A DNA stretch of 33,416 bases from Bacteroidota bacterium (GTDB taxonomy: Bacteria > Bacteroidota > Bacteroidia > Chitinophagales > Chitinophagaceae): positions 1 to 33,416 of the forward strand of contig JAKAKY010000005.1 in NCBI GenBank assembly GCA_021824365.1, in the 5' to 3' direction. The position numbers and the translations under genes were made by a program. Shown here piece by piece: positions 1,303 through 27,455 of this stretch; the first letter of the stretch is position 1, and every line of letters starts with the position of its first letter. The notes under the pieces were generated by a model that worked only from the letters and a program-made list of their open reading frames with translations, did not search any database and was not told where the DNA came from.

Positions 1303-1305
1303 TGC

Positions 1306-1332
1306 ATCCCCTTTAGGGGATTTTCTTTTTTA
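1306..1332 (+). terminator. Terminator-like hairpin between sigma gene and fecR
   Basis: ATCCCC at 1306-1311 pairs perfectly with GGGGAT at 1316-1321 around a TTTA loop, followed by TTTTCTTTTTT. It has the form of an intrinsic terminator but lies inside the sigma-fecR pair, 24 bases before the fecR start, so it may act as an attenuator lowering fecR expression relative to the sigma gene. Confidence 0.65.
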
Positions 1333-1355
1333 CCCACTCTTATTGAAATAGTACT

Positions 1356-2492: not shown

Positions 2493-2563
2493 TTCAAACT
2501 TAAAAACGACTGCCTATGCCCATCTTCAACTCCGGTTAAAAGCAACACTATATTCAAAAAAAA

Positions 2564-2636
2564 GCGGGAAATGCTGCAACATTCCCCGCCGGAAAAACAC
2601 CAGAATGCTTGCTACGGATAGCAGGTTCTTAGCATT
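2564..2636 (+). ncRNA. Structured leader between fecR and susC
   Basis: Two hairpins lie in the 168-base gap before susC. The first pairs GCGGGAAATG (2564-2573) with CATTCCCCGC (2580-2589) with one mismatch and a six-base loop; no T run follows, so it is not a simple terminator. The second is nested: AATGCT (2604-2609) with AGCATT (2631-2636), enclosing TGCTA (2610-2614) with TAGCA (2619-2623) around CGGA. The structure ends 24 bases before the susC ATG. It may be a 5' leader that controls susC translation or stability. This is inference from base pairing only; the ECF promoter itself was not recognised. Confidence 0.45.
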
Positions 2637-2660
2637 ATTCACTTATTCAAACACTAATGT

Positions 2661-6014: not shown

Positions 6015-6028
6015 ACTCATTAAAGCAA

Positions 6029-7540: not shown

Positions 7541-7566
7541 TTTATTCATTCATTAAACCTGTTATT

Positions 7567-8427
7567 ATGAAACGTAATAAAAAATATAACATTTCAACAT
7601 ATATGGCTGTATTGCTTTTATTGGCTTTGGGATTTACTTCCTGCCAGAAATCCTTCGATCCGGCCAGTTATGCACCTGCCCAAACATTTGGTGGATATGC
7701 AGCATCCAGAGAAATTGCAGCTTCCAATCTGGTGGGTTACTGGGGTTTTGAAAATACACTGACTGACAGTGTTTCCAACACCAATGGTAATGGTGTAGGT
7801 ACTTCATTTACCACAGGAATTAAAGGCAATGCCTTACAAGGCGCCAATAATGGTTATTTTATTACCACACCCAGCAGTGCTGTTGTAGGATTGAAAAGTT
7901 TTACTATTTCATTTTGGGTAAATTCTCCACAAAATACAAATGGTACTTTTGGTTTGGTTTGCTTATCAAATACCAAGGATTTTTGGGGAAATATTGATAT
8001 CTTCTTCGAAAATGGCAGCACACCTGCCAATGCCAATTTAAAAGCACACATTGAAAATTGGGTTACCCCAACAACCAATAATGATCAATGGCTGGGAAGT
8101 TTTGCCGCAGGCAATATCTGGAATAAATGGTCGCATATTGTATTAACGTATGATGCAACCACTTCTACCTTTGTTACGTACCTGAATGGCAGTGCCATTA
8201 ATACAAAAGTAAAAGCGGGAAACGGGCCATTAACTTTTCAAAATGCCTCTGCTTTAATTTTTGGCACTATGCAATTTAATACAACCCCATCTTTAGGTAC
8301 GGCTGGTGGCCCCCAGGGTTGGGCCAGTTATATGCCGGGGGCAATGGATGAAGTGCGTATTTATAATAAAGCCATTGTATCAGCAGATGTAAAAGCTTTA
8401 TATCAGTTGCAGAATTTAGGTAAATAA
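7567..8427 (+). CDS. LamG/concanavalin A-like lectin-fold lipoprotein
   Basis: 286 residues. The signal peptide ends with a lipobox LGFTSC (Cys26). From about residue 54 the protein is one LamG/Laminin_G_3-type jelly-roll: LVGYWGFENTLTDSVSNTNG at the start, SFTISFWVNS in the middle, KWSHIVLTYDATTSTFVTYLNG, and the closing MDEVRIYNKAI near the C terminus. No catalytic residues of a glycosidase family are recognised, so a binding role is more likely than hydrolysis. Its place just after susD is the place of SusE/F-like surface glycan-binding proteins, and it could present the same glucan to the SusC/D complex. It lies 26 bases after susD and is followed by a strong terminator-like hairpin. Confidence 0.85.
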   Translation: MKRNKKYNISTYMAVLLLLALGFTSCQKSFDPASYAPAQTFGGYAASREIAASNLVGYWGFENTLTDSVSNTNGNGVGTSFTTGIKGNALQGANNGYFITTPSSAVVGLKSFTISFWVNSPQNTNGTFGLVCLSNTKDFWGNIDIFFENGSTPANANLKAHIENWVTPTTNNDQWLGSFAAGNIWNKWSHIVLTYDATTSTFVTYLNGSAINTKVKAGNGPLTFQNASALIFGTMQFNTTPSLGTAGGPQGWASYMPGAMDEVRIYNKAIVSADVKALYQLQNLGK

Positions 8428-8450
8428 TTCTTTCATTTTTGTAAAATCAG

Positions 8451-8495
8451 AAGTGCATCCTGTATTCATCTTGCCAGCTGCAGGATGCACTTTTT
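8451..8495 (+). terminator. Terminator-like hairpin between the LamG and GH144 genes
   Basis: A perfect 12-base stem, AAGTGCATCCTG (8451-8462) with CAGGATGCACTT (8481-8492), with an 18-base loop and a T run to 8495. It is a good intrinsic terminator. The next ATG is only 9 bases after it and no promoter fits in that space, so the enzyme genes downstream probably depend on read-through. It likely sets high expression of susC/D/LamG and lower expression of the hydrolases. Confidence 0.75.
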
Positions 8496-8504
8496 ACTGT
8501 AAAT

Positions 8505-10187
8505 ATGAAACTTCTCTTTAAAAAAAGTATCATTGTTTATATACTTTTTGCATTTTTTTTTGGATGCAAAAAAAAAGATACACCTATTGCACCAACTCCT
8601 ACACCTGCACCTGCTTCATTTAGCCTCAATAGTTTAAAAGTAAATGGGGCTTACAATGGATTTACCTATTACAATGTAAATCCCAAACCATCTGTTTTAT
8701 TTTCATTTACTGCACCGCTCAGTAATAGCTCGTTGGCAAACAGCATACAATTAGTGGGTAGCAGTGGTGTAGTTATTCCTATCAATACTACATTACAAAA
8801 TAATGATAGTGCCGTTTTAATACAACCCCTTAACAACATCAATCCCATAACGTTATATACCTTAAAAGTTTCTACGGCGCTGCAATCAAAAGCAGGAGGG
8901 AATTTGCAATCACCTGTTTCCGTTAAATTAACCACAGCTATTGATTCAACCGATAAATTTTCGCAAATTGCTGATACAGCCCTGCTCACCTTAATCCAAC
9001 AACAAACCTTCAGATATTTTTGGGATTTTGGCCATCCGGTAAGTGGTATGGCAAGAGAAAGAAATACATCGGGCGATGTGGTAACAACCGGCGGTACCGG
9101 TTTTGGTATCATGAGTATGCTGGCAGGTATTAATCGTGGATTTATTTCCAGAACCGATGGATTGAATCGAATCAATACCATAGTTTCATTTTTGACAAAT
9201 AATTGTACACGATATCATGGCGCTTTTGCGCATTGGATAAATGGTGCTACCGGTGCAACAGTTCCCTTTAGTACCCGGGATAATGGGGCAGATTTAGTAG
9301 AAACCTCTTTTTTAATACAGGGATTATTATGTGCCCGTCAATATTTTAATGGCACCAATACACAGGAAGTGAATTTACGTAACAATATCAATACATTATG
9401 GGATGGAGTGGAATGGAACTGGTTTACACAAAATAATCAACAGGTATTGTACTGGCATTGGAGCCCCAATTATACTTGGGCAATCAATATGCCTATTAAA
9501 GGATGGAATGAAGCATTGATTACATATATATTGGCTGCATCTTCCACTACATCTCCCATTAGTCAGGCAGTATATACCAATGGATGGGCCTCGAATGGGG
9601 GTATGAAGAACGGAAATACTTATTACGGAAATGTATTACCGTTAGGTCCAACATTAGGCGGTCCGTTGTTTTTTGCACATTACTCTTTTTTGGGTATTAA
9701 TCCCAATAATTTGAATGATGCCTATGCTAATTACATGGCGCAAAACACCGCACACGCTAAAATTAATTATGCTTATTGTGTGGCTAATCCTGCAGGTTAC
9801 AATGGATATAGCAGTTCAGTTTGGGGGCTTACGGCCAGCGATGATAATGTTTCCGGCTATTCTGCTCATTCCCCTACTAACGATGTGGGCGTAGTAAGCC
9901 CTACTGCTGCTATTGCTTCTTTGCCTTATACACCAACTGAGTCTATGGCCGCTATCCGTTTTTTTTATTACAAATTAGGCGATAAAATTTGGGGCCAATA
10001 CGGTTTTACAGATGCTTTCAACCTAACTAATATTTGGTTTGCCGGTAGTTACCTGGCCATTGATCAGGGGCCTGAAATTATTATGATTGAAAATTACCGG
10101 TCGGGTTTGTTATGGAACTTATTTACATCCTGCCCCGAAGTACAACAGGGTATGCGTAATTTAGGCTTTACGGCACCTTATCTGTAA
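8505..10187 (+). CDS. GH144-type endo-beta-1,2-glucanase, lipoprotein form with Ig-like N-terminal domain
   Basis: 560 residues. The signal ends FFFGC (Cys21), followed by a basic patch and a Pro/Thr-rich linker (26-37). A Big_5/Ig-like beta domain fills about 38-145 (VLFSFTAPLSNSSLANSIQL, ITLYTLKVSTAL). The catalytic part, about 155-558, is an (alpha/alpha)6-barrel of the 'glucoamylase-like' GH144 type: TFRYFWDFGHPVSGMARER, DVVTTGGTGFGIMSM, RDNGADLVETSFLIQGLL, VLYWHWSPN, AIDQGPEIIMIENYRSGLLW. The founding member of GH144 is, to my knowledge, an endo-beta-1,2-glucanase of Chitinophaga pinensis. The lipid anchor and spacer domain suggest it works at the cell surface, making fragments for SusC/D. 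A close paralogue follows directly. Specificity other than beta-1,2-glucan is possible. Confidence 0.9.
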   Translation: MKLLFKKSIIVYILFAFFFGCKKKDTPIAPTPTPAPASFSLNSLKVNGAYNGFTYYNVNPKPSVLFSFTAPLSNSSLANSIQLVGSSGVVIPINTTLQNNDSAVLIQPLNNINPITLYTLKVSTALQSKAGGNLQSPVSVKLTTAIDSTDKFSQIADTALLTLIQQQTFRYFWDFGHPVSGMARERNTSGDVVTTGGTGFGIMSMLAGINRGFISRTDGLNRINTIVSFLTNNCTRYHGAFAHWINGATGATVPFSTRDNGADLVETSFLIQGLLCARQYFNGTNTQEVNLRNNINTLWDGVEWNWFTQNNQQVLYWHWSPNYTWAINMPIKGWNEALITYILAASSTTSPISQAVYTNGWASNGGMKNGNTYYGNVLPLGPTLGGPLFFAHYSFLGINPNNLNDAYANYMAQNTAHAKINYAYCVANPAGYNGYSSSVWGLTASDDNVSGYSAHSPTNDVGVVSPTAAIASLPYTPTESMAAIRFFYYKLGDKIWGQYGFTDAFNLTNIWFAGSYLAIDQGPEIIMIENYRSGLLWNLFTSCPEVQQGMRNLGFTAPYL

Positions 10188-10215
10188 ACACAAAAGGCTA
10201 TTAAAATAGGTACAA

Positions 10216-11544
10216 ATGAAAAAAACACTATTATTACTATGCTGTATTTGCGCAATATTTTCTTCCAATATTGCACAGCATAAACACATTCAACCAAAAT
10301 TATCTGATACAGCACTTTTAGATTTGGTGCAACAACAAACTTTTAAATATTTTTGGGATTTTGCACATCCTGTAAGTGGCATGGCTCGTGAACGCAGTAA
10401 TGTGGCTTATGACTATGGGGATGAAGTAGTAACTACAGGTGGCACCGGATTTGGAATCATGGCCATGATTGTGGCTGCAGATAGAAAATGGCTGCCACGG
10501 GATACCATTGCTGCACGATTACTGAAAATGATTCGCTTTCTTTCTAAAGCCAATTCTTATCATGGTGTATTCCCGCATTGGATGAATGGCAGTACCGGCA
10601 TTACAATTCCATTTAGCCGTAAGGATGATGGTGCCGATTTGGTTGAAACAGCTTATTTGTTTCAGGGCTTATTGTGTGCACGACAATACTTCACCAACAA
10701 TAATGCAGTTGAAACAGAAATCAGAAACCGTATTAATTGGTTGTGGAATGATATAGAATGGAATTGGTTTACCAAAGGCGGACAAACAATTTTGTACTGG
10801 CACTGGAGCCCCAATAATGGTTGGGCCATGAATTTTCCTATTCGTGGGTTTAATGAATGTTTAATCACTTATGTGTTAGCAGCATCGGGTAACCGTTATC
10901 CTGTTCCGGCCGATGTATACCATCAGGGATGGGTACAAAGCGATTTTTTTAAAAATGGCAAACAGTTTTATGGTATTACCTTGCCGTTGGGCTTTGATGG
11001 TGGCGGTCCATTATTTTTTTCTCAATATTCTTTCTTAGGTCTTGATCCACGTGGGTTAAAAGACCGTTATGCAGATTACCGGGAGCAAAACCGTAATCAT
11101 ACTTTAATTAATCATGCTTATTGTTTAGCTAACCCAAAGCAATTTAAAGGGTATGGACCTAACTGCTGGGGTTTAACCGCCTGCGATACCTATAATGGTT
11201 ACAACGCATTTTCTCCAACGAATGATGAAGGAACCATAGCGCCTACTGCTGCCTTGTCCGCATTCCCTTACACACCGGAATTTTCTATGCAGGCACTGCG
11301 TTTTTTTTATGATAGCCTTGGTTCAAAATTGTGGGGCGAATATGGGTTTAAAGATGCTTTTAACTTATCCAAAAACTGGTATGCTTCTTCCTACCTGGCC
11401 ATTGATCAGGGGCCTATTGTTGTGATGATAGAAAATTATAGAACGGGATTGTTATGGAAGTTACTCATGAGTTGTAAAGAAGTACAGGGTGGTTTAACGA
11501 AATTGGGTTTTGAAAGTCCGTGGTTGCAACCAAAAAATCATTAA
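10216..11544 (+). CDS. GH144-type endo-beta-1,2-glucanase, secreted form without extra domain
   Basis: 442 residues, close to the single-domain size of the family. The Sec signal (residues 1-20, ending SNIA before QHKH) has no lipobox Cys at its end, so the product is likely periplasmic. The catalytic domain begins at about residue 30 and matches the upstream gene along its length: TFKYFWDFAHPVSGMARER, EVVTTGGTGFGIMAM, RKDDGADLVETAYLFQGLL, ILYWHWSPN, AIDQGPIVVMIENYRTGLLW. The two genes look like an old tandem duplication: motifs are kept but intervening sequence differs. The division into an anchored and a soluble enzyme suggests successive cuts of the same glucan outside and inside the outer membrane. 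The gap to the previous gene is 28 bases, and to the next only 3. Confidence 0.9.
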   Translation: MKKTLLLLCCICAIFSSNIAQHKHIQPKLSDTALLDLVQQQTFKYFWDFAHPVSGMARERSNVAYDYGDEVVTTGGTGFGIMAMIVAADRKWLPRDTIAARLLKMIRFLSKANSYHGVFPHWMNGSTGITIPFSRKDDGADLVETAYLFQGLLCARQYFTNNNAVETEIRNRINWLWNDIEWNWFTKGGQTILYWHWSPNNGWAMNFPIRGFNECLITYVLAASGNRYPVPADVYHQGWVQSDFFKNGKQFYGITLPLGFDGGGPLFFSQYSFLGLDPRGLKDRYADYREQNRNHTLINHAYCLANPKQFKGYGPNCWGLTACDTYNGYNAFSPTNDEGTIAPTAALSAFPYTPEFSMQALRFFYDSLGSKLWGEYGFKDAFNLSKNWYASSYLAIDQGPIVVMIENYRTGLLWKLLMSCKEVQGGLTKLGFESPWLQPKNH

Positions 11545-11547
11545 ACC

Positions 11548-13314
11548 ATGAAGAAAATTTTTATTTTATTTTTCATAACAGTTGGCTGTATAAATGGGGT
11601 GCAGGCACAGGGTCAGCAAGCAACCTTTTGTAACCCCATTAATATTGATTATGGTTATACCCCCATTCCCAATTTCAGTGAAGCCGGCCGGCATCGCGCT
11701 ACTGCCGATCCGGTAATTGTTCGCTATAAAAATGATTATTATTTGTTTTCTACCAATCAATGGGGATATTGGTGGAGCAATGATATGTTGAAGTGGAATT
11801 TTGTTTCCCGAAAATTTTTACGTCCATGGAATGCCGGCTATGATGAGCTTTGCGCACCTGCAGTAGGCGTATTAGGTGATACGATGATTGTATTTGGCTC
11901 AACCTACACCACTAATTTTTCTGTTTGGATGAGTACTAACCCTGAAGCTAATGAATGGAGGCCTTTGGTTGATTCTTTTTCGATAGGCGGATGGGACCCC
12001 GATTTTTTTGTAGATACCGATGGTAAATTATACATGTATAATGGCAGCAGCAATCGGTATCCATTATACGGCATTGAGTTAAACAGAAGTAATCTTGCTC
12101 CCATAGGTACCAGAAAAGAAATGTATTTATTAGAACCCTGGCGTTATGGGTGGCAGCGTTTTGGCGAATTTATGGATAACACATTTTTAGATCCGTTTAT
12201 TGAAGGTGCCTGGATGACGAAACACAATAATAAATATTATTTACAATATGGTGCACCCGGCACCGAAATGAGTGGTTATGCCGATGGTGTAGTGGTAGGT
12301 AATCATCCTTTAGGCCCATTTACGCCGCAATCTGATCCGCTTTCATTTAAACCCGGTGGCTTTGCACGTGGCGCCGGGCATGGCAGTACTTTTCAGGATC
12401 CATGGAATAACTGGTGGCATGTTTCCACCATGGTAATCAGTGTGAAGAATAATTTTGAACGAAGGCTGGGTATTTGGCCTGCCGGTTTTGATAAAGATGA
12501 TGTGATGTATTGTAATACTTCATTTGGCGATTATCCGCATTATCTGCCACAGGTTGTACAAAATGGTAATCATGCTACACTTAACGGTAGTGGCTTTACG
12601 GGATGGATGCTCTTAAATTATAATAAACCTGTTCAGGTTTCTTCTACTTTAGGTGGTTTTGAACCCAATAATGCTGTGGATGAAAATATTAAAACCTATT
12701 GGAGTGCTGCTACAGGCAATAAAGGCGAATGGATTCAAACCGATTTGGGCGCTATTGATTCGGTATTTGCTATTCAAATTAATTATGCCGATCAGGATGT
12801 GGATAGTAATTTCCTGGGTAAACAATTAGGCACTTTTCATCAATATAAATTATATCAGTCGGTCGATAGTAAAAACTGGTCGGTATTGGTGGATAAATCA
12901 AATAACAAAACCGATATATCGCAGGAATATGTAGAGTTACCTTATCCTGTAAAAACCCGATTCATCAAATTGGAAAACATACACATGCCTACCGGAAAAT
13001 TTGCCATTAGTGGATTGCGTGTTTTTGGAAAAGGAATGGGTAGTGCTCCTGATTCTGTTAAAAACTTTATTGTTTTACGAACAGAGAAAGACAAGCGAAG
13101 TGCCTGGCTGAAATGGCAAACAGTTGATAATGCTTATGCGTATAATATTTATTTTGGAACACTGCCCGATAAGCTATACAACTCCATTATGGTATATAAC
13201 CAAAATGAGTATTGGTATAAAGGAATGGATAAAGAAAAACCTTACTATTTTTCCATTGAAGCCATCAACGAAAATGGCATTTCAAAAAAAACAAAGCCTG
13301 TTCGGGTAGAATAA
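11548..13314 (+). CDS. GH43-type glycosidase with discoidin (F5/8C) and FN3-like C-terminal parts
   Basis: 588 residues with a Sec signal ending VQAQ (about residue 21). A five-bladed propeller of the GH43 type covers about 28-330. The three expected acidic residues are in place: Asp54 in ATADPVIV (base), Asp150 in GGWDPDFFVDTDGK (pKa modulator) and Glu219 in FIEGAWMTKHNNKYYLQYG (acid). A discoidin/F5-8C-like domain follows at about 365-495 (NAVDENIKTYWSAATGNKGEW, RFIKLENIHMP), then an FN3-like module at about 500-588. GH43 enzymes usually remove arabinose, xylose or galactose, so its presence beside two GH144 and one GH3 is odd for a plain beta-1,2-glucan locus. It may act on a side group or have a specificity not yet known. 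Assignment to GH43 proper versus a related propeller family needs a profile search. Confidence 0.82.
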   Translation: MKKIFILFFITVGCINGVQAQGQQATFCNPINIDYGYTPIPNFSEAGRHRATADPVIVRYKNDYYLFSTNQWGYWWSNDMLKWNFVSRKFLRPWNAGYDELCAPAVGVLGDTMIVFGSTYTTNFSVWMSTNPEANEWRPLVDSFSIGGWDPDFFVDTDGKLYMYNGSSNRYPLYGIELNRSNLAPIGTRKEMYLLEPWRYGWQRFGEFMDNTFLDPFIEGAWMTKHNNKYYLQYGAPGTEMSGYADGVVVGNHPLGPFTPQSDPLSFKPGGFARGAGHGSTFQDPWNNWWHVSTMVISVKNNFERRLGIWPAGFDKDDVMYCNTSFGDYPHYLPQVVQNGNHATLNGSGFTGWMLLNYNKPVQVSSTLGGFEPNNAVDENIKTYWSAATGNKGEWIQTDLGAIDSVFAIQINYADQDVDSNFLGKQLGTFHQYKLYQSVDSKNWSVLVDKSNNKTDISQEYVELPYPVKTRFIKLENIHMPTGKFAISGLRVFGKGMGSAPDSVKNFIVLRTEKDKRSAWLKWQTVDNAYAYNIYFGTLPDKLYNSIMVYNQNEYWYKGMDKEKPYYFSIEAINENGISKKTKPVRVE

Positions 13315-13339
13315 ATCTGCGAAACCTAAATAAAATTGT

Positions 13340-15628
13340 ATGAAAAAAACGTATTTATTATTTGTTGCTTTGATGGCGTTCAGTTATACAGCCATTGCAC
13401 AAACTGTAGCTGCTACTGCTAAAATGAATCAATTCATTGATCAATTAATGCAAAAAATGACCCTGGATGAAAAAATTGGTCAGCTAAATTTATTAACCCC
13501 CGGTGGTGGAATTCCTACCGGTTCTGTTGTAAGTACCGATGTTGAAACCAAAATTAAAAAAGGCCAGGTGGGTGGTTTGTTTGGTGTAATTGGTGCCGAT
13601 AAAGTATTACAGGCACAACGGCTGGCAGTGGAAAAATCCAGGTTACATATTCCCTTAATTTTTGGTTCTGATGTGATTCATGGCCATAAAACAACATTCC
13701 CCATTCCTTTAGGGCTGGCTTGCAGTTGGGATACCACTTTAATTAAACAAACTGCACGTGCTGCAGCGGAAGAAGCTACTGCCGATGGATTAAGTTGGGC
13801 TTTCTCACCCATGGTAGATATTTGCCGCGACCCCAGATGGGGGCGTATTGCCGAAGGTGCAGGCGAAGATGCTTTTTTAGGTAGTGCTATTGCCGGTGCC
13901 ATGGTGCGTGGTTATCAACAGAATAATCTTCGGCAGGATAATACCGTTATGGCTTGTGTAAAGCATTTTGCCTTATACGGCGCCGCGGAAGGTGGCCGCG
14001 ATTATAATACAGTAGATATGAGCCGGATCAGAATGTATAATGAATATTTGCCGCCATATAAAGCCGCTATTGATGCCGGTGTAGGTAGTGTAATGAGTTC
14101 ATTCAATGTAATTGATGATATTCCGGCAACGGGTAACCGTTGGTTGTTAACCGATTTATTGCGAAAGCAATGGCAATTTAATGGGTTTGTGGTGAGTGAT
14201 TATACTTCAGTAAATGAAATGGAAGCGCATGGCTTAGGTAATTTGCAACAGGTTTCTGCATTAGCACTAAAAGCAGGTTTGGATATGGATATGGTGGGTG
14301 AAGGATTTCTAACTACTTTAAAAAAATCATTGCAGCAAGGTAAAGTAATCCTAAATGATATTAATACTGCCTGTAGAAGAATACTGGAAGCCAAATATAA
14401 ATTGGGATTATTTGAAAATCCATATCGTAATGTTTCATCCGAAAGGGCTGCTGTTATTTTATCACCCGATCATTTAGCGCTTTCCAGAAAAGCAGCTGCC
14501 AAAGCCTGTGTATTATTAAAAAACAACCATAACGTATTGCCTTTGCAACGTAAAGGTACCATTGCATTGGTTGGACCATTAGCCGATAGCCGCCGCAATA
14601 TGTTGGGTACCTGGAGTGTGGCAGGCGATTGGCATAAAGCGATAACATTGAAAGAAGGAATGGAAAAATTAGCTGCGGATCAGGTGAAAATAATCTATGC
14701 CAAAGGTGCTAATATTTCTGATGATACCCTGTTCAATCATAAAGTAAATGTGTTTGGTCCCGAAATTGAAATGGGAACCGCTTCATCCGATGCCATGATT
14801 CAGGAAGCAGTGGCTGCTGCGCAAAAGGCAGATGTAGTAGTAGCTGCATTAGGTGAAGCCGCCGATATGTCGGGCGAATCATCCAGCAGGGCAGATATAG
14901 GGTTGCCGGAAAGCCAGCAAAAACTTTTAAAGGCTTTAGTACAAACCGGAAAACCGGTCGTAATTGTGTTGTTTAACGGCAGACCATTGACGTTAGTAAA
15001 AGAAAGCCAAATGGCTACCGCTATACTCGATGCATGGTTTGGCGGCACCGAAGCCGGCAATGGCATTGCAGATGTTTTATTTGGTGTAGAAAATCCTTCC
15101 GGTAAATTAACCGCTTCTTTTCCCTATAGTGTAGGTCAAATTCCGGTGTATTACAATCACTTAAATACTGGCAGACCTTATGTTTTAGGTGGCCCAACCA
15201 AATTCAAATCAGATTATTTGGATATTCCCAACGCACCCCTGTTTCCGTTTGGTTATGGATTAAGTTATACCCGGTTTCTATATTCACCCATCACCTTATC
15301 TGATACTATTTTAAAAAATGGCACTACCATTCATGCCATGGTGAAGGTGACCAATTCCGGTAATTACGATGGTGAAGAACTGGTACAATTGTATCTGCGC
15401 GATGAAGTGGCTTCTATTAGCCGCCCGGTTAAAATGCTGAAAGGATTTCAAAAAATAGTTTTGAAAAAAGGTGAAACCAAAACAGTTGATTTTCCCATAC
15501 AGGTAGATGCTTTAAAATTTTACAACAGTCGTTTAGAACCTGTTGCCGAACCCGGGAAATATGAAGTGATGATTGGTACGAATAGTGATGTGGTACAAAC
15601 TGCTTCGTTTACTTTCAATAATCGATAA
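13340..15628 (+). CDS. bglX: GH3 beta-glucosidase (BglX-like)
   Basis: 762 residues, typical for BglX. A Sec signal ends AIAQ (about residue 21) without a lipobox, so the enzyme is likely periplasmic. The N-terminal TIM barrel holds SDVIHGHKTTFPIPLG (110-125) and the nucleophile Asp287 in GFVVSDYTSVNEM. The alpha/beta sandwich holds VCLLKN-like and ALGEAADMSGESSSR motifs, with Glu513 the likely acid/base. A fibronectin III-like domain ends the protein (GEELVQLYLRDEVASISRPV). It should release glucose from the non-reducing end of short beta-glucans. GH3 enzymes act on sophorose and its oligomers in known beta-1,2-glucan loci, so it is the natural last step here. It is the final gene of the locus; a strong terminator follows. 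The symbol is given by similarity only. Confidence 0.93.
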   Translation: MKKTYLLFVALMAFSYTAIAQTVAATAKMNQFIDQLMQKMTLDEKIGQLNLLTPGGGIPTGSVVSTDVETKIKKGQVGGLFGVIGADKVLQAQRLAVEKSRLHIPLIFGSDVIHGHKTTFPIPLGLACSWDTTLIKQTARAAAEEATADGLSWAFSPMVDICRDPRWGRIAEGAGEDAFLGSAIAGAMVRGYQQNNLRQDNTVMACVKHFALYGAAEGGRDYNTVDMSRIRMYNEYLPPYKAAIDAGVGSVMSSFNVIDDIPATGNRWLLTDLLRKQWQFNGFVVSDYTSVNEMEAHGLGNLQQVSALALKAGLDMDMVGEGFLTTLKKSLQQGKVILNDINTACRRILEAKYKLGLFENPYRNVSSERAAVILSPDHLALSRKAAAKACVLLKNNHNVLPLQRKGTIALVGPLADSRRNMLGTWSVAGDWHKAITLKEGMEKLAADQVKIIYAKGANISDDTLFNHKVNVFGPEIEMGTASSDAMIQEAVAAAQKADVVVAALGEAADMSGESSSRADIGLPESQQKLLKALVQTGKPVVIVLFNGRPLTLVKESQMATAILDAWFGGTEAGNGIADVLFGVENPSGKLTASFPYSVGQIPVYYNHLNTGRPYVLGGPTKFKSDYLDIPNAPLFPFGYGLSYTRFLYSPITLSDTILKNGTTIHAMVKVTNSGNYDGEELVQLYLRDEVASISRPVKMLKGFQKIVLKKGETKTVDFPIQVDALKFYNSRLEPVAEPGKYEVMIGTNSDVVQTASFTFNNR

Positions 15629-20186: not shown

Positions 20187-21077
20187 ATGGCATTGAACCT
20201 GCAAACCTTTAAAACCCGAACGTTAACTGCATTGCTGTTTGTGATCATCATGCTGGCAGGATTACTCATTAATCAATGGAGTTTTTTTATATTGTTTACC
20301 ATTATTCATTTTGGCTGCTGGCACGAGTATCAGCAATTAATCAAAAAAATATACCCTCCTTATAACGGTATTGGCCTGGTGCATGAGTATGGTATTATGT
20401 TTTTAGGCTGGTGTTTTATGGTGTGGCGTTTTCATAAACCTTATCCATTAGGTCAGGTAACCCTATATGGTTTGGGTTGGTATTTGTTTTTACTCATGGC
20501 TGTTTTTTTAATGGCTAAAGAAATTGTGTTTAAAAAGCAAATTGATTTGAAAATAATTGGCTACTCCACATTAGGGCTATTATATATTTCATTGAGCTGG
20601 AGTTTAATGATGGATATTCGTATTGGTTTTTGGCCGGTTGCAGGTATAGATAGTTTACAAATATTTCCAGGGTTAGCTGTTGTGTTGTTATTAATTGCTA
20701 CCATTTGGATCAATGATACGATGGCCTATCTGGTTGGTTCTTTCATTGGTAAAACACCACTTTCCGCCATCTCACCCAAAAAAACCTGGGAAGGTACCAT
20801 TGGCGGTGCAGTTATAGCCATTATTTTGGCTACTTTTTTGGCCGTACAATTTACAGGTATCTTGCTCAACATAGCATGGGGTATCACCATTATTGCAGCT
20901 GTGGCAGGAACATTAGGCGATTTATGGGAAAGCAAATTAAAACGCATGGCCGGGGTAAAAGACAGTGGACAAATTATGCCCGGACATGGCGGGTTTTTAG
21001 ACCGGTTTGATTCTTTGCTGTTAGCCACGCCGATAATTTGGTTGTTTTTATGGGCCATGAGCGGATTTCCACTTTAA
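20187..21077 (+). CDS. cdsA: Phosphatidate cytidylyltransferase
   Basis: 296 residues with about eight membrane segments. The CDP-diglyceride synthetase signature near the C terminus is intact: LGDLWESKLKRMAGVKDSG followed by QIMPGHGGFLDRFDS (about residues 240-275), with the conserved Lys-Arg, Lys-Asp and HGGxxDR residues. The enzyme joins CTP and phosphatidic acid to give CDP-diacylglycerol, the branch point of phospholipid synthesis in the inner membrane. It starts 18 bases after the DUF2007-like gene and is probably cotranscribed with it and the CPBP gene. The motif IWINDTMAYLVGSFIGKTPLS, seen around residues 172-193, is also typical of CdsA in this phylum. Confidence 0.96.
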   Translation: MALNLQTFKTRTLTALLFVIIMLAGLLINQWSFFILFTIIHFGCWHEYQQLIKKIYPPYNGIGLVHEYGIMFLGWCFMVWRFHKPYPLGQVTLYGLGWYLFLLMAVFLMAKEIVFKKQIDLKIIGYSTLGLLYISLSWSLMMDIRIGFWPVAGIDSLQIFPGLAVVLLLIATIWINDTMAYLVGSFIGKTPLSAISPKKTWEGTIGGAVIAIILATFLAVQFTGILLNIAWGITIIAAVAGTLGDLWESKLKRMAGVKDSGQIMPGHGGFLDRFDSLLLATPIIWLFLWAMSGFPL

Positions 21078-21097
21078 ACTAACAGTTACAACTTCTG

Positions 21098-21128
21098 TTT
21101 GCTGCTAACGTTAGTTAGTGTATTTTTG
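21098..21128 (+). promoter_or_regulatory. Promoter of the tetR gene of the phenylacetate cluster
   Basis: TTTG at 21098-21101, a 19-base spacer and TATTTTTG at 21121-21128 match the Bacteroidota housekeeping consensus fully. The expected start point falls about at the ATG (21133), so the transcript may have no leader. The whole operator palindrome lies in the spacer. Confidence 0.82.
21105..21118. promoter_or_regulatory. Operator 1 for the TetR regulator (CTAAC-N4-GTTAG)
   Basis: CTAACGTTAGTTAG holds two inverted half-sites CTAAC and GTTAG with a four-base gap, placed between the -33 and -7 boxes of the tetR promoter. The same 14-base pattern occurs before paaA. Binding here would block RNA polymerase, which predicts autorepression. 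Confidence 0.78.
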
Positions 21129-21132
21129 TGCA

Positions 21133-21723
21133 ATGGGAAGAATTAAAACCGATACCAATAACTCTCGCAAAGCAGTAATTGTAGCCAAAGCAGCTACTTT
21201 ATTCAAAGAAAAAGGTTATAAAGCTGCCAGCATGCGTGAACTGGCTGATATAGTGGGTGTAGAAGCAGCCAGCCTCTATAACCATATAAAAAGCAAAAGT
21301 GAATTGCTACATGAAATATGTTTTAGTGTAGCCAATCGCTATGGCCATTTTATGGAATCAGTTGAGGCAGAATCGTGCAGTAGCATTAAAAAAATTGAAA
21401 AAATACTGCGTTTCCACATCCATGGCATGATTGAGCATTTTGATGAAGTATATGTGAGCGATAGGGAGTGGAAATATTTGGAAGACCCCTATTTGTCTAA
21501 TTTTCAAAATCAACGGCGTACCTATCGCAAACGTTTTGCTGCCATTATAGAAGCCGGTATTCAAAAAAAAGAAATAAAATCCATTGATGCCACTACTGCT
21601 GTACTCATTATGCTACACGCCATTAGCGGTATTGAAAGCTGGCACCGAAGTAAACAACGCATTAGCGGTGATGCATTAGAAGAAAATATGATTACCATTT
21701 TGGTAGGCGGTTTGAAAAACTAA
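21133..21723 (+). CDS. paaR: TetR-family repressor of the phenylacetate genes (PaaR-like)
   Basis: 196 residues from the ATG at 21133. A GTG five codons upstream overlaps the -7 box and is rejected. The N-terminal TetR helix-turn-helix is clear (AATLFKEKGYKAASMRELAD followed by IVGVEAASLYNHIKSKSELL, residues about 20-60); the rest is the helical ligand domain. TetR-type PaaR proteins in other bacteria repress phenylacetate genes and let go when phenylacetyl-CoA binds. Two things support that role here: the gene heads the paa cluster, and identical palindromes lie in its own promoter and before paaA. The symbol rests on context. The gap to paaE is 45 bases with no promoter or terminator seen, so tetR and paaE are probably cotranscribed. 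Confidence 0.88.
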   Translation: MGRIKTDTNNSRKAVIVAKAATLFKEKGYKAASMRELADIVGVEAASLYNHIKSKSELLHEICFSVANRYGHFMESVEAESCSSIKKIEKILRFHIHGMIEHFDEVYVSDREWKYLEDPYLSNFQNQRRTYRKRFAAIIEAGIQKKEIKSIDATTAVLIMLHAISGIESWHRSKQRISGDALEENMITILVGGLKN

Positions 21724-21768
21724 TGGCTGCTTTACAATAAACTAATTTTTTCATTTAAAACATTTACT

Positions 21769-22842
21769 GTGTCACATTTTTATCCGGTAAAAGTGAATGA
21801 AGTGTACCATGAAACCGATTCGGCAGTGGTAATTGGTTTCGATATTCCCAATGAATGGAAATCCATTTTTGCCTATAATGCCGGTCAATATATTAACCTG
21901 CGCACATGGATAAATGGTAACGAAGTGCGAAGAACCTATTCATTATGTACACCACCTTCTGAGCAACGGTGGTGCATTGGCGTTAAACTATTGCCCGACG
22001 GTGTTTTTTCCAATTATGTCTTTCGTCATTTACAACCCGGCGATACGATTGAATTAATGCCGCCAATGGGTAAATTCTATACGCCGTTACATGCTGAGCA
22101 ACAAAAAAATTATGTAGCATTTGCTGCAGGCAGTGGCATTACGCCCATTTTGGCTATTATTACTGCTACCCTGCAAACTGAGTCTAAGAGCAACTTTACA
22201 TTAGTGTATGGCAATAAAAGCCGTACCGATATGATGTTTAAGGAGAGATTAGAAGCATTGAAAAATAAATATATGGAACGTTTTGTACTCATTCCCGTTT
22301 TTAGCCGCGAACGAGTGGAAGCTCCATTAAACGAAGGGCGTATTGATGCAGAAAAATGTGCAGTGTTAACCAGGCAGTTGGTGGATCTTTCTGCCGACGA
22401 ATTATTTATTTGTGGCCCATCTGAAATGATTACGGCGGTAAAAGATTTTCTTGTACAAAAAGGAATTTCCGAACAACATATTCATTTTGAATTGTTTACT
22501 GCATTGAATGCTAAGCCCAGAACTGCAACTGCCATCAATCCGGTTATTGCTAATAACACCGAAAGTAAAATCACCATTCAATTAGATGGGCATCGCTTTT
22601 ATTTTCCATTGGCAGCTAATGGGATGAGTATTTTAGATGCAGCCCGCCAACAGGGTGCCGATGTGCCTTATGCCTGTAAAGCGGGGGTTTGTTCTACCTG
22701 CCGGGCTAAATTAATAAAAGGTAAAGTGAATATGGAGGTAAATTATGCTTTAGAACCCGATGAAGTGGCGGCCGGTTTCATCCTCACTTGCCAAAGTCAC
22801 CCTGCTTCTGATGGAGTTTGGGTAGATTATGATGTTAAATAA
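21769..22842 (+). CDS. paaE: Phenylacetyl-CoA epoxidase reductase subunit PaaE
   Basis: 357 residues starting with GTG at 21769 (MSHFYPVKVNEVYHETDSA), the first sensible start after the tetR stop. Domains in order: FAD-binding barrel with RTYSLC (55-60), NAD-binding domain with GSGITP (121-126) and CGPSEM (215-220), and a C-terminal plant-type 2Fe-2S ferredoxin with Cys303, Cys308, Cys311 and Cys341 (C-x4-C-x2-C-x29-C). It passes electrons from NADPH to the di-iron oxygenase PaaABC, which adds oxygen to the ring of phenylacetyl-CoA. The usual order in other bacteria is paaABCDE; here paaE precedes paaA and is separated from it by an operator and promoter, so it is expressed with tetR. Confidence 0.95.
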   Translation: MSHFYPVKVNEVYHETDSAVVIGFDIPNEWKSIFAYNAGQYINLRTWINGNEVRRTYSLCTPPSEQRWCIGVKLLPDGVFSNYVFRHLQPGDTIELMPPMGKFYTPLHAEQQKNYVAFAAGSGITPILAIITATLQTESKSNFTLVYGNKSRTDMMFKERLEALKNKYMERFVLIPVFSRERVEAPLNEGRIDAEKCAVLTRQLVDLSADELFICGPSEMITAVKDFLVQKGISEQHIHFELFTALNAKPRTATAINPVIANNTESKITIQLDGHRFYFPLAANGMSILDAARQQGADVPYACKAGVCSTCRAKLIKGKVNMEVNYALEPDEVAAGFILTCQSHPASDGVWVDYDVK

Positions 22843-22858
22843 GCTAACAATTGTTAGC
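22843..22858. promoter_or_regulatory. Operator 2 for the TetR regulator, before paaA
   Basis: GCTAACAATTGTTAGC is a perfect 16-base palindrome that begins directly after the paaE stop codon. It contains CTAAC-N4-GTTAG, the same pattern as in the tetR promoter, and covers the TTG that serves as the -33 element of the paaA promoter. Confidence 0.82.
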
Positions 22859-22884
22859 AAGCAACGGGTATTTTCTTATTTTTG
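22851..22884 (+). promoter_or_regulatory. Promoter of the paaA-paaY genes
   Basis: TTG at 22851-22853, a 23-base spacer and TATTTTTG at 22877-22884, a perfect TAnnTTTG box. The spacer is at the long end of the accepted range. Transcription would start around 22888-22890, just before the first paaA ATG. Confidence 0.65.
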
Positions 22885-22892
22885 AAATCTAA

Positions 22893-23882
22893 ATGGTTGT
22901 GGTTATGGATACAACAATGTTGTTTGCACAATTTCAAAAAAAAATTGACCAGGACATAAAAATTGAGCCTCAGGATTGGATGCCCGATGAATATCGTAAA
23001 ACACTCATTCGTCAAATTTCGCAACATGCGCACAGCGAAGTAGTAGGTATGTTACCGGAAGGGAATTGGATTACCCGGGCACCCTCACTAAGGCGTAAAG
23101 CCATTCTGTTGGCTAAAGTGCAGGATGAAGCCGGCCATGGCCTGTATTTATATTCCGCTGCCGAAACCCTGGGTATTACCCGCGATGAAATGTACCAACA
23201 GTTACATAGCGGCAAAGCAAAATATTCTTCCATTTTCAATTATCCCACCATTAGTTGGGCAGATATGGGTGCCATTGGCTGGTTGGTTGATGGAGCTGCC
23301 ATTATGAATCAGGTACCTTTATCGCGTTGCTCTTATGGCCCTTATGCCCGTGCCATGGTGCGTATTTGTAAAGAGGAAAGCTTCCATCAGCGTCAGGGTT
23401 TCGAAATTTTATTAACTTTATCAAAAGGTACCAAAGCACAACGCAAAATATGTCAGGATGCCATTAACCGTTGGTGGTGGCCTTCTTTAATGATGTTTGG
23501 CCCTACGGATAATGATTCACCCCATACCGCACAAAGCATGCTTTGGAAAATTAAACGTTTTACCAACGATGAACTCCGCCAAAAATTTGTGGATGTATGT
23601 GCCGAACAAGTTAAATTTTTAGGGATGACACTACCCGATAAAGATTTAAAATGGAATGAAGAAAGACAACATTATGATTTTGGCCCCATTAACTGGGAAG
23701 AATTTTGGAATGTGGTAAAAGGGAATGGCCCCTGTAATAAAGAAAGGCTGGCCACCCGTGTACAGGCATGGGAAGATGGTGCATGGGTGCGTGATGCAGC
23801 TTTGGCATATGAAGAAAAAAAAGCAGTAAGGCAGTACCGTTATGATGCTGAAAATGAAAACACTAAAATGCCTGTATCGTAA
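22893..23882 (+). CDS. paaA: Phenylacetyl-CoA epoxidase catalytic subunit PaaA
   Basis: 329 residues, near the usual 310-330. The ATG at 22905 (MDTTMLFAQ) may be the true start, since the first ATG lies only a few bases after the expected transcription start. The ferritin-like di-iron site residues are present: Glu in [28 protein letters not shown] (Glu79, His82), and [12 protein letters not shown] (Glu162, His165), numbered from 22893. With PaaB, PaaC and PaaE it turns phenylacetyl-CoA into the ring-1,2-epoxide, the first committed step of aerobic phenylacetate breakdown. It is the first gene after operator 2 and is followed by paaB after 30 bases. Confidence 0.97.
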
Positions 23883-23912: not shown

Positions 23913-24269
23913 ATGTTAACATTGATACGAAAATATTTTTATGGAGATTATGGTGAGATTGAAAATGGTGCGCCACCTGCTCCTCCATCACGTGAATGGC
24001 CATTGTGGGAAGTATTTATTAGAAGCAAACAGGGACTTGACCATAAGCATGTAGGTAGTTTGCATGCCACTGATGCTGCCATGGCTATTGAAAACGCAAG
24101 GGATGTATATACCCGCAGAATGGAAGGAGTGAGCATTTGGGTAGTGGAAAGCAGGCATATTCATGCTTCCAATCCCGATGAAGCAGAAGCTTTGTATGAT
24201 CCTGCCAACGATAAAATTTACCGGCATCCAACTTTTTATCAACTGCCCGATGAATTGAAATACATGTAA
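23913..24269 (+). CDS. paaB: Phenylacetyl-CoA epoxidase subunit PaaB
   Basis: 118 residues; many PaaB proteins have about 95. The core matches the family: WPLWEVFIRSKQGLDHKHVG, SLHATDAAMAIENARDVYTR, and GVSIWVVESRHIHAS. The extra length is an N-terminal stretch of about 28 residues (MLTLIRKYFYGDYGEIE then a Pro-rich GAPPAPPSREW), which is either real or includes a wrong start, but no other ATG is in frame before the core. PaaB has no metal site; it holds together the PaaA/PaaC complex. Spacing (30 bases before, 27 after) fits a single operon. Confidence 0.95.
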   Translation: MLTLIRKYFYGDYGEIENGAPPAPPSREWPLWEVFIRSKQGLDHKHVGSLHATDAAMAIENARDVYTRRMEGVSIWVVESRHIHASNPDEAEALYDPANDKIYRHPTFYQLPDELKYM

Positions 24270-24296: not shown

Positions 24297-25136
24297 ATGA
24301 ATGCTGAATCAATGATACCAAATCATAATGCAGTTACCGATACAACCATTAATGCTATGCTGCAATTAGCAGATGATAACCTGATCATGGGGCATCGGTG
24401 CAGTGAATGGTGTGGACATGGCCCCATTTTAGAGCAGGATATTGCATTAACCAATATTGCATTAGATTTTGTTGGGCAAGCTCGCAACTTTTATCAATAT
24501 GCTGCAACTATATTACAACAAATGCCCAACGAAAAGGCATTAGCGTTGGTTGATTTTGATATGGTACCCGAACAAATTACCGAAGATAGCCTGGCCTGCT
24601 TACGCGATGCAGGTGCTTTTAAAAATCATTTATTGGTTGAGTTGCCTAATGGCGATTGGGCGCAAACCATGCTTAAAATATTCTTCTTTAGCGCTTATCG
24701 TTTCTATCTGTTTCAATTATTACAAAAGAATACCGATACACAATTGGCCGGCATTGCTGAAAAGTCGATCAAAGAGGTACAATACCATTTAAAGTGGAGT
24801 AGTGAATGGGTAATTCGGTTAGGAGATGGTACCGATGAAAGCAAAAACCGTATCCTGAAAGCGATGGATACTTTATGGCCTTATGCAGGTGAGTTATTTG
24901 GGCCTGCGAAATATGAATTGGAATGTTACCAGTTAGAGTCAATTGCATTCGAAACGCTTCGCGTAAACTGGCTTGAAAAAGTGAATCAAATTTTCGAAAT
25001 GGCTACACTTCCGGCTCAGTCTTTTACCCAATGGCACCAGTCCGGTGGCAAGCAGGGTATACATACAGAATATCTGGGATATATATTAGCTGAAATGCAA
25101 TTTTTGCCCAGAACTTTTCCCAATGCAACATGGTAA
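24297..25136 (+). CDS. paaC: Phenylacetyl-CoA epoxidase structural subunit PaaC
   Basis: 279 residues, within the normal range for PaaC. It has the ferritin-like helices of the subunit (DDNLIMGHRCSEWCGHGPIL, DIALDFVGQARNFYQY-like region, AEKSIKEVQYHLKWSSEWVI, LDDGTDESK-like turn). PaaC is related to PaaA but does not carry the catalytic di-iron centre; it is needed for the complex to be stable and active. The ATG at 24297 is chosen; a second ATG at 24312 is possible. The end overlaps the paaD start by seven bases, so these two are translationally coupled. Confidence 0.95.
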   Translation: MNAESMIPNHNAVTDTTINAMLQLADDNLIMGHRCSEWCGHGPILEQDIALTNIALDFVGQARNFYQYAATILQQMPNEKALALVDFDMVPEQITEDSLACLRDAGAFKNHLLVELPNGDWAQTMLKIFFFSAYRFYLFQLLQKNTDTQLAGIAEKSIKEVQYHLKWSSEWVIRLGDGTDESKNRILKAMDTLWPYAGELFGPAKYELECYQLESIAFETLRVNWLEKVNQIFEMATLPAQSFTQWHQSGGKQGIHTEYLGYILAEMQFLPRTFPNATW

Positions 25137-25636
25137 ATGATATTCAACATACCGAAGCATCAGTTTGGCAACTATTGGCCACGGTGAGAGACCCGGAAGT
25201 GCCCGTTTTATCGGTGGTTGATTTAGGTATTGTAAGAAAAGTGGTTATCGTAAATGCAAACACTATTTCGATCATTATTACGCCCACTTATAGTGGTTGC
25301 CCGGCTATGGATGTAATCAACATGCAATTGCGTATGGTATTATTAGAGAATGGGTTTAAACAAGTGCATATTGAGCAGGTGCTTTCACCTGCATGGACAA
25401 CAGGTTGGATGACAGAAGAAGGGAAAGAAAAATTAAGAGCTTACGGTATTGCACCTCCGTTACCCAAACAAACCGTTTGCCATCCCGATGTATTCCAGGA
25501 GGAAGAGGCGATTCAGTGTCCACATTGCTTGTCTTACCATACCCGATTAGTTTCCCGTTTTGGAAGTACGGCATGCAAAGCATTATATCAATGCTTAGAT
25601 TGCAGGGAACCATTCGATTATTTTAAATGTCATTAA
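25130..25636 (+). CDS. paaD: PaaD, iron-sulfur maturation factor of the epoxidase
   Basis: 168 residues. The N-terminal half is a MIP18/DUF59 domain (VRDPEVPVLSVVDLGIVRKV, PTYSGCPAMDVI with Cys57). The C-terminal half is a small Cys-rich ribbon: Cys130 and Cys133 (QCPHC), Cys149, Cys155 and Cys158 (QCLDC) and Cys167, as in PaaD (called PaaJ in some species). DUF59 proteins help assemble iron-sulfur clusters, so PaaD is thought to mature PaaE or the oxygenase. It overlaps paaC by seven bases and stops nine bases before paaG. Confidence 0.95.
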   Translation: MVNDIQHTEASVWQLLATVRDPEVPVLSVVDLGIVRKVVIVNANTISIIITPTYSGCPAMDVINMQLRMVLLENGFKQVHIEQVLSPAWTTGWMTEEGKEKLRAYGIAPPLPKQTVCHPDVFQEEEAIQCPHCLSYHTRLVSRFGSTACKALYQCLDCREPFDYFKCH

Positions 25637-25645
25637 TATAACTAC

Positions 25646-26419
25646 ATGGCCGAAATTATTTTTGAAATCAATAACGGTATTGCCTTTGTTACGCTGAACA
25701 GGCCTGAAAAACTGAATGCTTTTAACAGGCCAATGGCTTTGTTATTACAGGAAAAACTAACTGCCTGTAAAGATGCCGCTGTTCGTTGTGTGTACCTTAC
25801 CGGTACAGGAAAAGGCTTTTGTGCAGGCCAGGATTTAGAAGAAATACCTGACCCCACTGGTACGGGAATGAACCGTATTTTAAAAGAACAGTTTAATCCA
25901 ATTATTATTCAATTGCAGCAATTGCAGAAACCGGTGGTGGCTGCCGTAAATGGTGTAGCGGCCGGTGCCGGTGCTAATATTGCGCTGGCATGTGATATTG
26001 TGGTTGCGCATGAGCAGGCAACATTTATTCAGGCATTTTCTAAAATTGGTTTAATACCAGATAGTGGGGGCACTTATTTTTTACCCCGGTTAATCGGCTA
26101 TCAGAAAGCAATGGCTTTGATGATGTTGGGCGATAAAGTTTCAGCAACCGAGGCTTGTACTATGGGTATGATTTATAAAATTTTTCAGGCAGGAGAATTT
26201 GAAACAGCCTCAAAACAATTGGCTAATACCCTGGCTGCCATGCCTACGCAGGCATTGGCATATATTAAACAAGCCTTGCAAACATCAGCAGATCAAACAC
26301 TGGAAAAACAATTGGCATTAGAAGATGAGTTACAACAAAAAGCCGCTGCTACGCACGATTTTAAAGAAGGTGTAGCGGCATTCATGCAAAAACGGGCACC
26401 TCATTTTAAAGGCCATTAA
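25646..26419 (+). CDS. paaG: 2-(1,2-epoxy-1,2-dihydrophenyl)acetyl-CoA isomerase PaaG
   Basis: 257 residues of the crotonase fold. Landmarks: LNRPEKLNAFNRPM, GFCAGQDLEE (CoA and oxyanion loop), VAAVNGVAAGAGANIALACD (oxyanion glycine), and FSKIGLIPDSGGTYFLPRLIG, where Asp139 matches the essential Asp of PaaG. It turns the ring epoxide into the seven-membered oxepin-CoA, which PaaZ then opens. The IPDSGG motif with Asp and without a Glu at the hydratase position favours isomerase over enoyl-CoA hydratase PaaF. It is nine bases after paaD and eleven before paaI, clearly in the operon. Confidence 0.93.
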   Translation: MAEIIFEINNGIAFVTLNRPEKLNAFNRPMALLLQEKLTACKDAAVRCVYLTGTGKGFCAGQDLEEIPDPTGTGMNRILKEQFNPIIIQLQQLQKPVVAAVNGVAAGAGANIALACDIVVAHEQATFIQAFSKIGLIPDSGGTYFLPRLIGYQKAMALMMLGDKVSATEACTMGMIYKIFQAGEFETASKQLANTLAAMPTQALAYIKQALQTSADQTLEKQLALEDELQQKAAATHDFKEGVAAFMQKRAPHFKGH

Positions 26420-26430
26420 AATTAATAACC

Positions 26431-26853
26431 ATGCCGGAACACAATCCATTTGAACAGGTAGTAGCACAAATGATGAAAGATGATCTCTTTTCTCAATGGC
26501 TGGGTATTCAGGTATTGGAGATAAATGAGGGATATAGTAAAATAACTATGCAGGTACGGCCTGAAATGGTGAACGGACTGGGTATTGTGCATGGCGGTAT
26601 TGCTTTTTCATTAGCCGATAGTGCTTTTGCCTTTGCCTGTAACAACCGCAATCAATTATCGGTGGCATTAGATACTTCAATTCAGTTTTTGAAGCCGGTG
26701 CATGTACATGATACATTAACCGCAGAGGCTATGGAATTACATAACGGAAAAAGTACGGGATTGTATCTGATTAAAATTTTTAATCAACATCAACACATGA
26801 TTGCTTTGTTCAAAGGAACTTGTTTCAGAACCACCAAAAAAATTGTGGCATGA
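26431..26853 (+). CDS. paaI: Hotdog-fold acyl-CoA thioesterase PaaI
   Basis: 140 residues, the usual size. The hotdog motif is well kept: MVNGLGIVHGGIAFSLADSA, with Asn48, His54 and Asp63 in the places of the PaaI active site. It cleaves phenylacetyl-CoA derivatives that accumulate in the pathway and frees CoA. The stop overlaps the ATG of paaY (ATGA at 26850-26853), so the two are coupled. In many bacteria paaI also lies among the paa genes, which supports the name. Confidence 0.94.
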   Translation: MPEHNPFEQVVAQMMKDDLFSQWLGIQVLEINEGYSKITMQVRPEMVNGLGIVHGGIAFSLADSAFAFACNNRNQLSVALDTSIQFLKPVHVHDTLTAEAMELHNGKSTGLYLIKIFNQHQHMIALFKGTCFRTTKKIVA

Positions 26854-27455
26854 TTTATCGTTTTCGTCAACACATACCCGTTATTCATCCTTCTGCATTT
26901 GTACATCCACAGGCCGCTGTAACCGGAAATGTAGTGATAGGGCATGATGTGTATGTTGGTCCGGGTGCTTCCATTCGGGGCGATTGGGGTAAAATTCTGA
27001 TTGAAGATGGTTGCAATGTGCAGGAAAATTGTACTATTCACATGTTCCCCGGTGTAACAGTTGTTTTAAAACAAGGTGCCCATATTGGGCACGGCGCTGT
27101 TATTCATGGCGCTGCCATTGGGGCCAATTGCTTAGTGGGGATGAATGCGGTAATTATGGATAATGTTGTTTTGGGGGATGAATGTTTTGTGGGGGCATTA
27201 GCTTTTATAAAAGCCGATTCCGTATTTGAACGTAGAAGTTTAATTGTTGGCAATCCTGCCAAAAAAATAAAAGAGGTAAGTGATGAAATGATGCAATGGA
27301 AAACAGAAGGAACAAAATTATACCAATCCCTGCCCAATCAAATGAGAGAACACTGGGAAGCTTGCGAACCTGTCACCGAACTTCCATTAGCGGATCCTGA
27401 CAGCGAACCTATTGTGGTTTATAAAACCTGGAATGAATCAAAACCGCATCAGTAA
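26850..27455 (+). CDS. paaY: PaaY, hexapeptide-repeat thioesterase
   Basis: 201 residues from the ATG at 26850, which overlaps the paaI stop; the longer frame from 26820 would start with TTG inside paaI. The left-handed beta-helix of gamma-carbonic anhydrase type shows repeated I/V-G-x4 turns (VTGNVVIGHDVYVGPGASIRG, in two parts). The zinc ligands are likely His64, His81 and His86 (CTIHMFPG, HIGHGAVIH). The end, QMREHWEACEPV, is typical for PaaY. PaaY hydrolyses dead-end CoA thioesters made when the ring intermediate decomposes, which protects the CoA pool. It is the last recognised paa gene here. Confidence 0.93.
   Translation: MIYRFRQHIPVIHPSAFVHPQAAVTGNVVIGHDVYVGPGASIRGDWGKILIEDGCNVQENCTIHMFPGVTVVLKQGAHIGHGAVIHGAAIGANCLVGMNAVIMDNVVLGDECFVGALAFIKADSVFERRSLIVGNPAKKIKEVSDEMMQWKTEGTKLYQSLPNQMREHWEACEPVTELPLADPDSEPIVVYKTWNESKPHQ

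Follow-up and report, generated by a model that had tools for sequence, protein, structure and literature searches.

The TetR-family protein encoded beside the phenylacetate degradation (paa) genes of a Hydrotalea species (Chitinophagaceae) is probably an autoregulating repressor, released by a CoA thioester, whose regulon has expanded within Chitinophagaceae. Judging from the sequences and positions of its sites, their conservation and their co-occurrence with the regulator, this reading as a whole, with its predicted binding, repression and effector response, is given a probability of about 0.82. The window, a stretch of 33,416 nucleotides, was assigned to Hydrotalea since its TetR is 95% identical to that of Hydrotalea flava and 93% identical to that of H. 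sandarakina, its closest named relatives. In the proposed mechanism, a dimer of the TetR protein (21133-21723) would bind the 16-base palindrome RCTAACRnnYGTTAGY. Binding at operator 1, flanked by the -33 and -7 elements of the tetR promoter, would cause autorepression together with repression of the co-directional paaE gene, and binding at operator 2 would block the paaA promoter. A CoA thioester would trigger release, phenylacetyl-CoA or a similar aryl- or short acyl-CoA being the likeliest candidate. In other Bacteroidia, the same repressor would guard little beyond the paa operon. In Chitinophagaceae its regulon would comprise acyl-CoA dehydrogenases, acetyl-CoA acetyltransferase, paaZ, isobutyryl-CoA mutase, acyl-CoA carboxylase, proline dehydrogenase and SDR dehydrogenase. 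The relevant features of the window are as follows.

21076-21084, forward strand: accessory half-site AAACTAACA, 26 bases upstream of operator 1 (start to start)
21098-21101, forward strand: -33-like TTTG of the tetR promoter, by sequence, with an N19 spacer to TATTTTTG
21104-21119, no strand: operator 1, GCTAACGTTAGTTAGT, core 21105-21118, inside the tetR promoter, after its -33 and before its -7 element
21121-21128, forward strand: -7-like TATTTTTG of the tetR promoter, by sequence, a T-rich box conserved in relatives
21133-21723, forward strand: tetR, PaaR-type proposed repressor of 196 aa (TetR_N 46 bits, TetR_C_24 68 bits)
21769-22842, forward strand: paaE, epoxidase reductase subunit (TIGR02160, 425.8 bits, above cut-off)
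22843-22858, no strand: operator 2, GCTAACAATTGTTAGC, perfect 16-base palindrome upstream of paaA, core 22844-22857
22877-22884, forward strand: -7-like TATTTTTG of the paaA promoter, by sequence, with TATTTTTG/A similarly spaced in relatives
22905-23882, forward strand: paaA, phenylacetyl-CoA epoxidase subunit A (TIGR02156, 535 bits; ORF open from 22893 too)
23913-24269, forward strand: paaB (TIGR02157, 143.8 bits)
24297-25136, forward strand: paaC (TIGR02158, 247.2 bits)
25130-25636, forward strand: paaD (TIGR02159, 188.7 bits)
25646-26419, forward strand: paaG-like enoyl-CoA isomerase (TIGR02280, 311 bits, below the cut-off of 345)
26431-26853, forward strand: paaI thioesterase (TIGR02286, 128 bits, above cut-off)
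26847-27455, forward strand: paaY-like hexapeptide protein (TIGR02287, 209.9 bits, below the cut-off of 319.6)

The gene order tetR-paaE-(operator 2)-paaABCD-paaG-paaI-paaY is kept in relatives. Both TetR_N and TetR_C_24 scored above their cut-offs, which places the product of tetR in the TetR family, with an N-terminal helix-turn-helix. The gene adjoins the epoxidase cluster, and the tetR-paaA pairing is also found in other families. Elsewhere in the window, positions 697-15628 carry sigma factor-like and FecR-like genes ahead of SusC/SusD-like and several glycosidase-like genes; reading of the ORFs suggests a polysaccharide utilisation locus.

Exactly two copies of CTAAC-N4-GTTAG are present in the window, with the cores CTAACGTTAGTTAG (21105-21118) and CTAACAATTGTTAG (22844-22857) and the inner bases GTTA and AATT, respectively. 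The preliminary description had located both sites here, placing one inside the spacer of the tetR promoter and the other at the core of a perfect 16-base palindrome (22843-22858), and had noted a box common to both promoters. The sequence agrees on each point, the common box being TATTTTTG at 21121-21128 and 22877-22884. The TTTG-N19-TATTTTTG arrangement, followed by the tetR ATG at 21133, is predicted to be a good Bacteroidota-type promoter with operator 1 within its spacer. Operator 1 also holds a 10-base palindrome, CTAACGTTAG, giving two possible reading registers, and has A at position 9 instead of a pyrimidine. Operator 2 is separated by 19 bases from the paaA TATTTTTG and by 46 bases from the likely paaA ATG (22905). 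Its suggested location over the -33 element of paaA is plausible but weak: the sole -33-like TTG beneath the palindrome (22851-22853) gives a 23-base spacer, a loose geometry.

Conservation was assessed in a set of 80 related loci. Upstream DNA was available for 79 tetR loci; 68 of these carry an exact site and 74 a site with no more than one mismatch, usually placed 28-32 bases ahead of the ATG. This supports the earlier view of the two sites as a conserved predicted operator of the adjacent tetR gene. The consensus of 67 distinct tetR-locus sequences, RCTAACRnnYGTTAGY, has nearly invariant arms, a purine at position 6, mostly a pyrimidine at position 9, and two free central bases. At paaA, 30 of the 48 loci with upstream sequence have an exact site: it is present in 30/30 cases where paaA has its own leader and absent in 18/18 where paaE and paaA are closely joined, with gaps from overlap to 66 bases, although the gap ranges overlap slightly, being 18-63 bases in four site-bearing loci. 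Where the two genes are closely joined, the tetR promoter can therefore serve both. The pattern is thus kept at related tetR and paaA loci, and the possibility raised at the outset that it might be absent from orthologous clusters does not apply.

Many Chitinophagaceae with a TetR less than 68% identical have a tetR promoter without the operator, and their acyl-CoA dehydrogenase and paaA promoters retain it. Autoregulation is consequently not universal and seems, from these promoter sequences, to come and go among Chitinophagaceae. Among 27 genomes with a diverged TetR, 18 carry an exact paaA site and 22 one with no more than one mismatch; these include paaA genes located on another contig or far from tetR.

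An additional element, AAACTAAC(A/G), i.e. AAACTAACR, lies upstream of the tetR operator in 64 loci. Its offset is exactly 34 bases (start to start) in 52 tetR promoters and 26 in Hydrotalea. The element is 95% identical between loci versus 35% for its flanks, and CTAAC is expected in 5% of shuffled upstream stretches. As a guess, it could be a third half-site that might serve a second dimer.

The whole genome (2.90 Mb) contains six exact sites, so that about 0.07 would be expected per 33-kb window. The raw exact count is not enriched genome-wide (6 versus 6 for the reversed control pattern), the one-mismatch count is not in excess (51 versus 120 in the reversed control), and in relatives the raw counts are likewise not above the reversed control. 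Because there is no excess over the control, raw counts are uninformative and positions were used instead. All six exact sites are intergenic and located just before genes: tetR, paaA, two acyl-CoA dehydrogenases (gaps of 30 bases for acyl-CoA dehydrogenase 1 and 15 bases for acyl-CoA dehydrogenase 2), a thiolase best matching acetyl-CoA acetyltransferase models, and an SDR dehydrogenase divergent to kdsA. Random scattering, which would have spoken against an operator, is therefore not observed. On this sequence evidence the two window sites are not chance occurrences. A one-mismatch site occupies a promoter position before paaZ (TIGR02278, 826 bits), so that palindromic sites precede both the regulator's own gene and the paa operons. 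The expectation of sites before further paa genes is borne out for paaZ with this mismatch and fails for paaK, since no PaaK was detected in the genome. Other one-mismatch sites lie at the promoters of an IcmF-like mutase (isobutyryl-CoA mutase), an acyl-CoA carboxyltransferase, proline dehydrogenase (Pro_dh) and an aminotransferase; the remaining copies are mostly within genes. Extending the target list with the 16-letter pattern and two mismatches gave 77 sites and was abandoned as too unspecific.

Twelve relatives contain 73 exact sites, and 54 of them precede members of nine gene families fixed beforehand from the window's genome: tetR (10), paaA (8), paaZ (2), acyl-CoA dehydrogenase 1 (11), acyl-CoA dehydrogenase 2 (8), thiolase (9), SDR dehydrogenase (4), carboxylase (1) and PEP carboxykinase (1). 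The naive binomial p of 9e-157 for 54/73 is not used as a probability, as relatives are not independent. Although the search pattern left positions 6 and 9 free, R is found at position 6 in 54/54 target sites and Y (T/C) at position 9 in 51/54. Further exact sites in the relatives precede genes for proline dehydrogenase, an E1 dehydrogenase component and cystathionine-beta-synthase-like proteins, the last identified by sequence reading. The "full regulatory model for the paa cluster" of the preliminary description is thus too narrow: four of the six exact genomic sites, and most sites in relatives, stand before acyl-CoA or amino-acid catabolism genes outside paa, and this broader target set is kept within the family. 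Two distant genomes, one of them outside Chitinophagaceae, also have operators ahead of 2-oxoacid dehydrogenase E1-like genes, a hint that branched-chain or aromatic keto-acid oxidation may have joined the regulon more than once.

Sites outside paa are linked to this particular TetR by co-occurrence. The acyl-CoA dehydrogenase 1 site, counted when it lay within 120 bases and had at most two mismatches, occurs in 28 of 29 genomes with this TetR and in none of 12 without it (Fisher 1.6e-9, ignoring relatedness). The acyl-CoA dehydrogenase 1 gene tree implies about three losses of the TetR, and independent pairs agree in 2/2 cases, too few for significance.

These data bear on the alternatives. 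The regulon could be confined to paa, with chance matches or decayed copies making up the other genomic sites; it appears to be so confined in ten genomes of other Bacteroidia families, where the pattern occurs only once or twice each and nine have a copy at tetR. Such confinement is very unlikely for Chitinophagaceae, in which the site recurs at non-paa target genes, no further than about 100 bases from the start, in as many as 11 of 12 relatives, and the acyl-CoA dehydrogenase site vanishes along with the TetR. It is also quite unlikely that the acyl-CoA genes answer, through this palindrome, to some other TetR or an unrelated factor, with the paa TetR confined to a local role. Repressors with related sites are common, and the genome encodes four other TetR proteins. 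However, only the paa TetR closely matches the query, and the four other TetR genes, considered as cognate regulator genes, have at least three mismatches in their best upstream sites and were rejected on that ground. In addition, the sites and the paa TetR are gained and lost together, though this co-loss amounts to few events.

Activation or dual regulation at some targets, from a site upstream of or over the -33 element and with help from the accessory half-site, is unlikely. It would fit the relatives whose paaA operator is placed at the -33 region or above it, and also the CTAAC half-site found 34 bases further up in 14 of 30 paaA promoters. The tetR operator within the promoter spacer, by contrast, has the arrangement of classical repression, and known PaaR proteins repress. 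That the palindromes act as RNA hairpins (attenuators or terminators) instead of DNA operators is hardly credible: they are inverted repeats near gene starts, but their arms are 99.6% identical among loci, compensatory changes are absent and the centre varies freely, and the tetR repeat lies upstream of the -7 element and would not be transcribed. The hairpin interpretation was accordingly rejected.

For the repressor favoured here, phenylacetyl-CoA is the presumed effector by analogy with Thermus and Burkholderia, whose PaaR proteins it releases (review PMC9493321). No homologue of PaaK (phenylacetate-CoA ligase, TIGR02155) was detected in the genome, and none above the family cut-off in the 12 relatives; the epoxidase cluster and PaaZ are present despite this. 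Since PaaK was not found, phenylacetyl-CoA may come from phenylpyruvate, with the pathway starting at phenylacetyl-CoA; a diverged ligase is also possible. A broader proposal is made tentatively: in Chitinophagaceae the local phenylacetate repressor may have grown into a wide-ranging regulator of both amino-acid and acyl-CoA catabolism (phenylalanine, branched-chain, proline, possibly threonine, and thiolase). Phenylalanine-derived phenylacetyl-CoA, formed without a recognisable PaaK, would serve as a general signal of amino-acid burning, and at the tetR and some paaA promoters the operator would be composite, with a third half-site held in fixed phase.

Homologues of the TetR at E <= 1e-25 are encoded by 39 of 247 genomes of the class, mostly at 27-41% identity. 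Even where identity is only 31-38%, tetR still neighbours paaA, and both the recognition helix and the site are preserved. In most class-wide loci read, tetR adjoins paaA and an exact site stands at the very start of tetR; several of these sites are CTAACGnnCGTTAG, letter for letter the Thermus consensus (PMC6651687). The recognition helix VEAASLYNHIKSK (E-A-A-S-L-Y-x-H-I-x-S-K) is almost invariant across the class and the rest of the protein diverges. The simplest history suggested by these comparisons is a local paa repressor throughout the class, followed by an expanded regulon in Chitinophagaceae, the direction of change being itself a reconstruction.

No description of such a regulon was found in open-access literature text. 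RegPrecise lists PaaR and a Bacteroidaceae collection, and its paper describes none for Chitinophagaceae. The system offers a regulator with a sequence-defined operator, RCTAACRnnYGTTAGY, and a target list for Bacteroidota, whose catabolic repressors are largely uncharted. It may also represent the passage, within one family, from a local, often single-operon repressor to a multi-pathway regulator, of which living relatives would preserve intermediate and ancestral-like states.

The PaaR proteins described in the literature are TetR repressors that phenylacetyl-CoA releases (PMC9493321, PMC2770484). The closest known system is PaaR (TTHA0973) of Thermus thermophilus HB8, likewise a TetR protein in a paa cluster with autoregulation and a 14-base operator, published as CNAACGNNCGTTNG (PMC6651687). 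The form CNAAC-N4-GTTNG, given in the preliminary description, was right in length and ends, and its outer bases are matched by both window sites and the 67-locus consensus. The inner G at position 6 and C at position 9 of CNAACGNNCGTTNG are not matched by the window sites (GTTA, AATT), while R at 6 and Y at 9 are conserved and exact CTAACGnnCGTTAG occurs in several Bacteroidia. Unlike that of Thermus, the Chitinophagaceae regulon extends far beyond paa, and the inner C/G pair is not kept in the window. The closest solved chains to the window TetR by sequence include none named PaaR. Because the inner C/G positions differ and the comparison with TTHA0973 covered operator form and gene place, the system is best described as PaaR-like by form and place and was not filed as Thermus PaaR. 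PfmR (TTHB023) of T. thermophilus, a protein distinct from PaaR, has a different operator consensus.

PaaR (BCAL0210) of Burkholderia cenocepacia is similarly a TetR repressor, acting at the paaA, paaZ and paaH promoters through an inverted repeat between -10 and -35 (PMC2770484). Its operator, however, is the 15-base ACCGACCGGTCGGTT (PMC9493321), another sequence, and its regulon is described as paa only. In breadth, the Chitinophagaceae regulon resembles those of LiuR/LiuQ and PsrA/FadP of Proteobacteria and BkaR of mycobacteria, small repressors, several of them TetR, that control degradation of branched-chain amino acids, keto acids or fatty acids (PMC5343134, PMC3920632). Those regulators differ in belonging to other phyla, in lacking a link to the paa operon and in using other operators, the BkaR core, GTTA-N-T-N4-A-N-TAAC, being distinct from the operator of the window.
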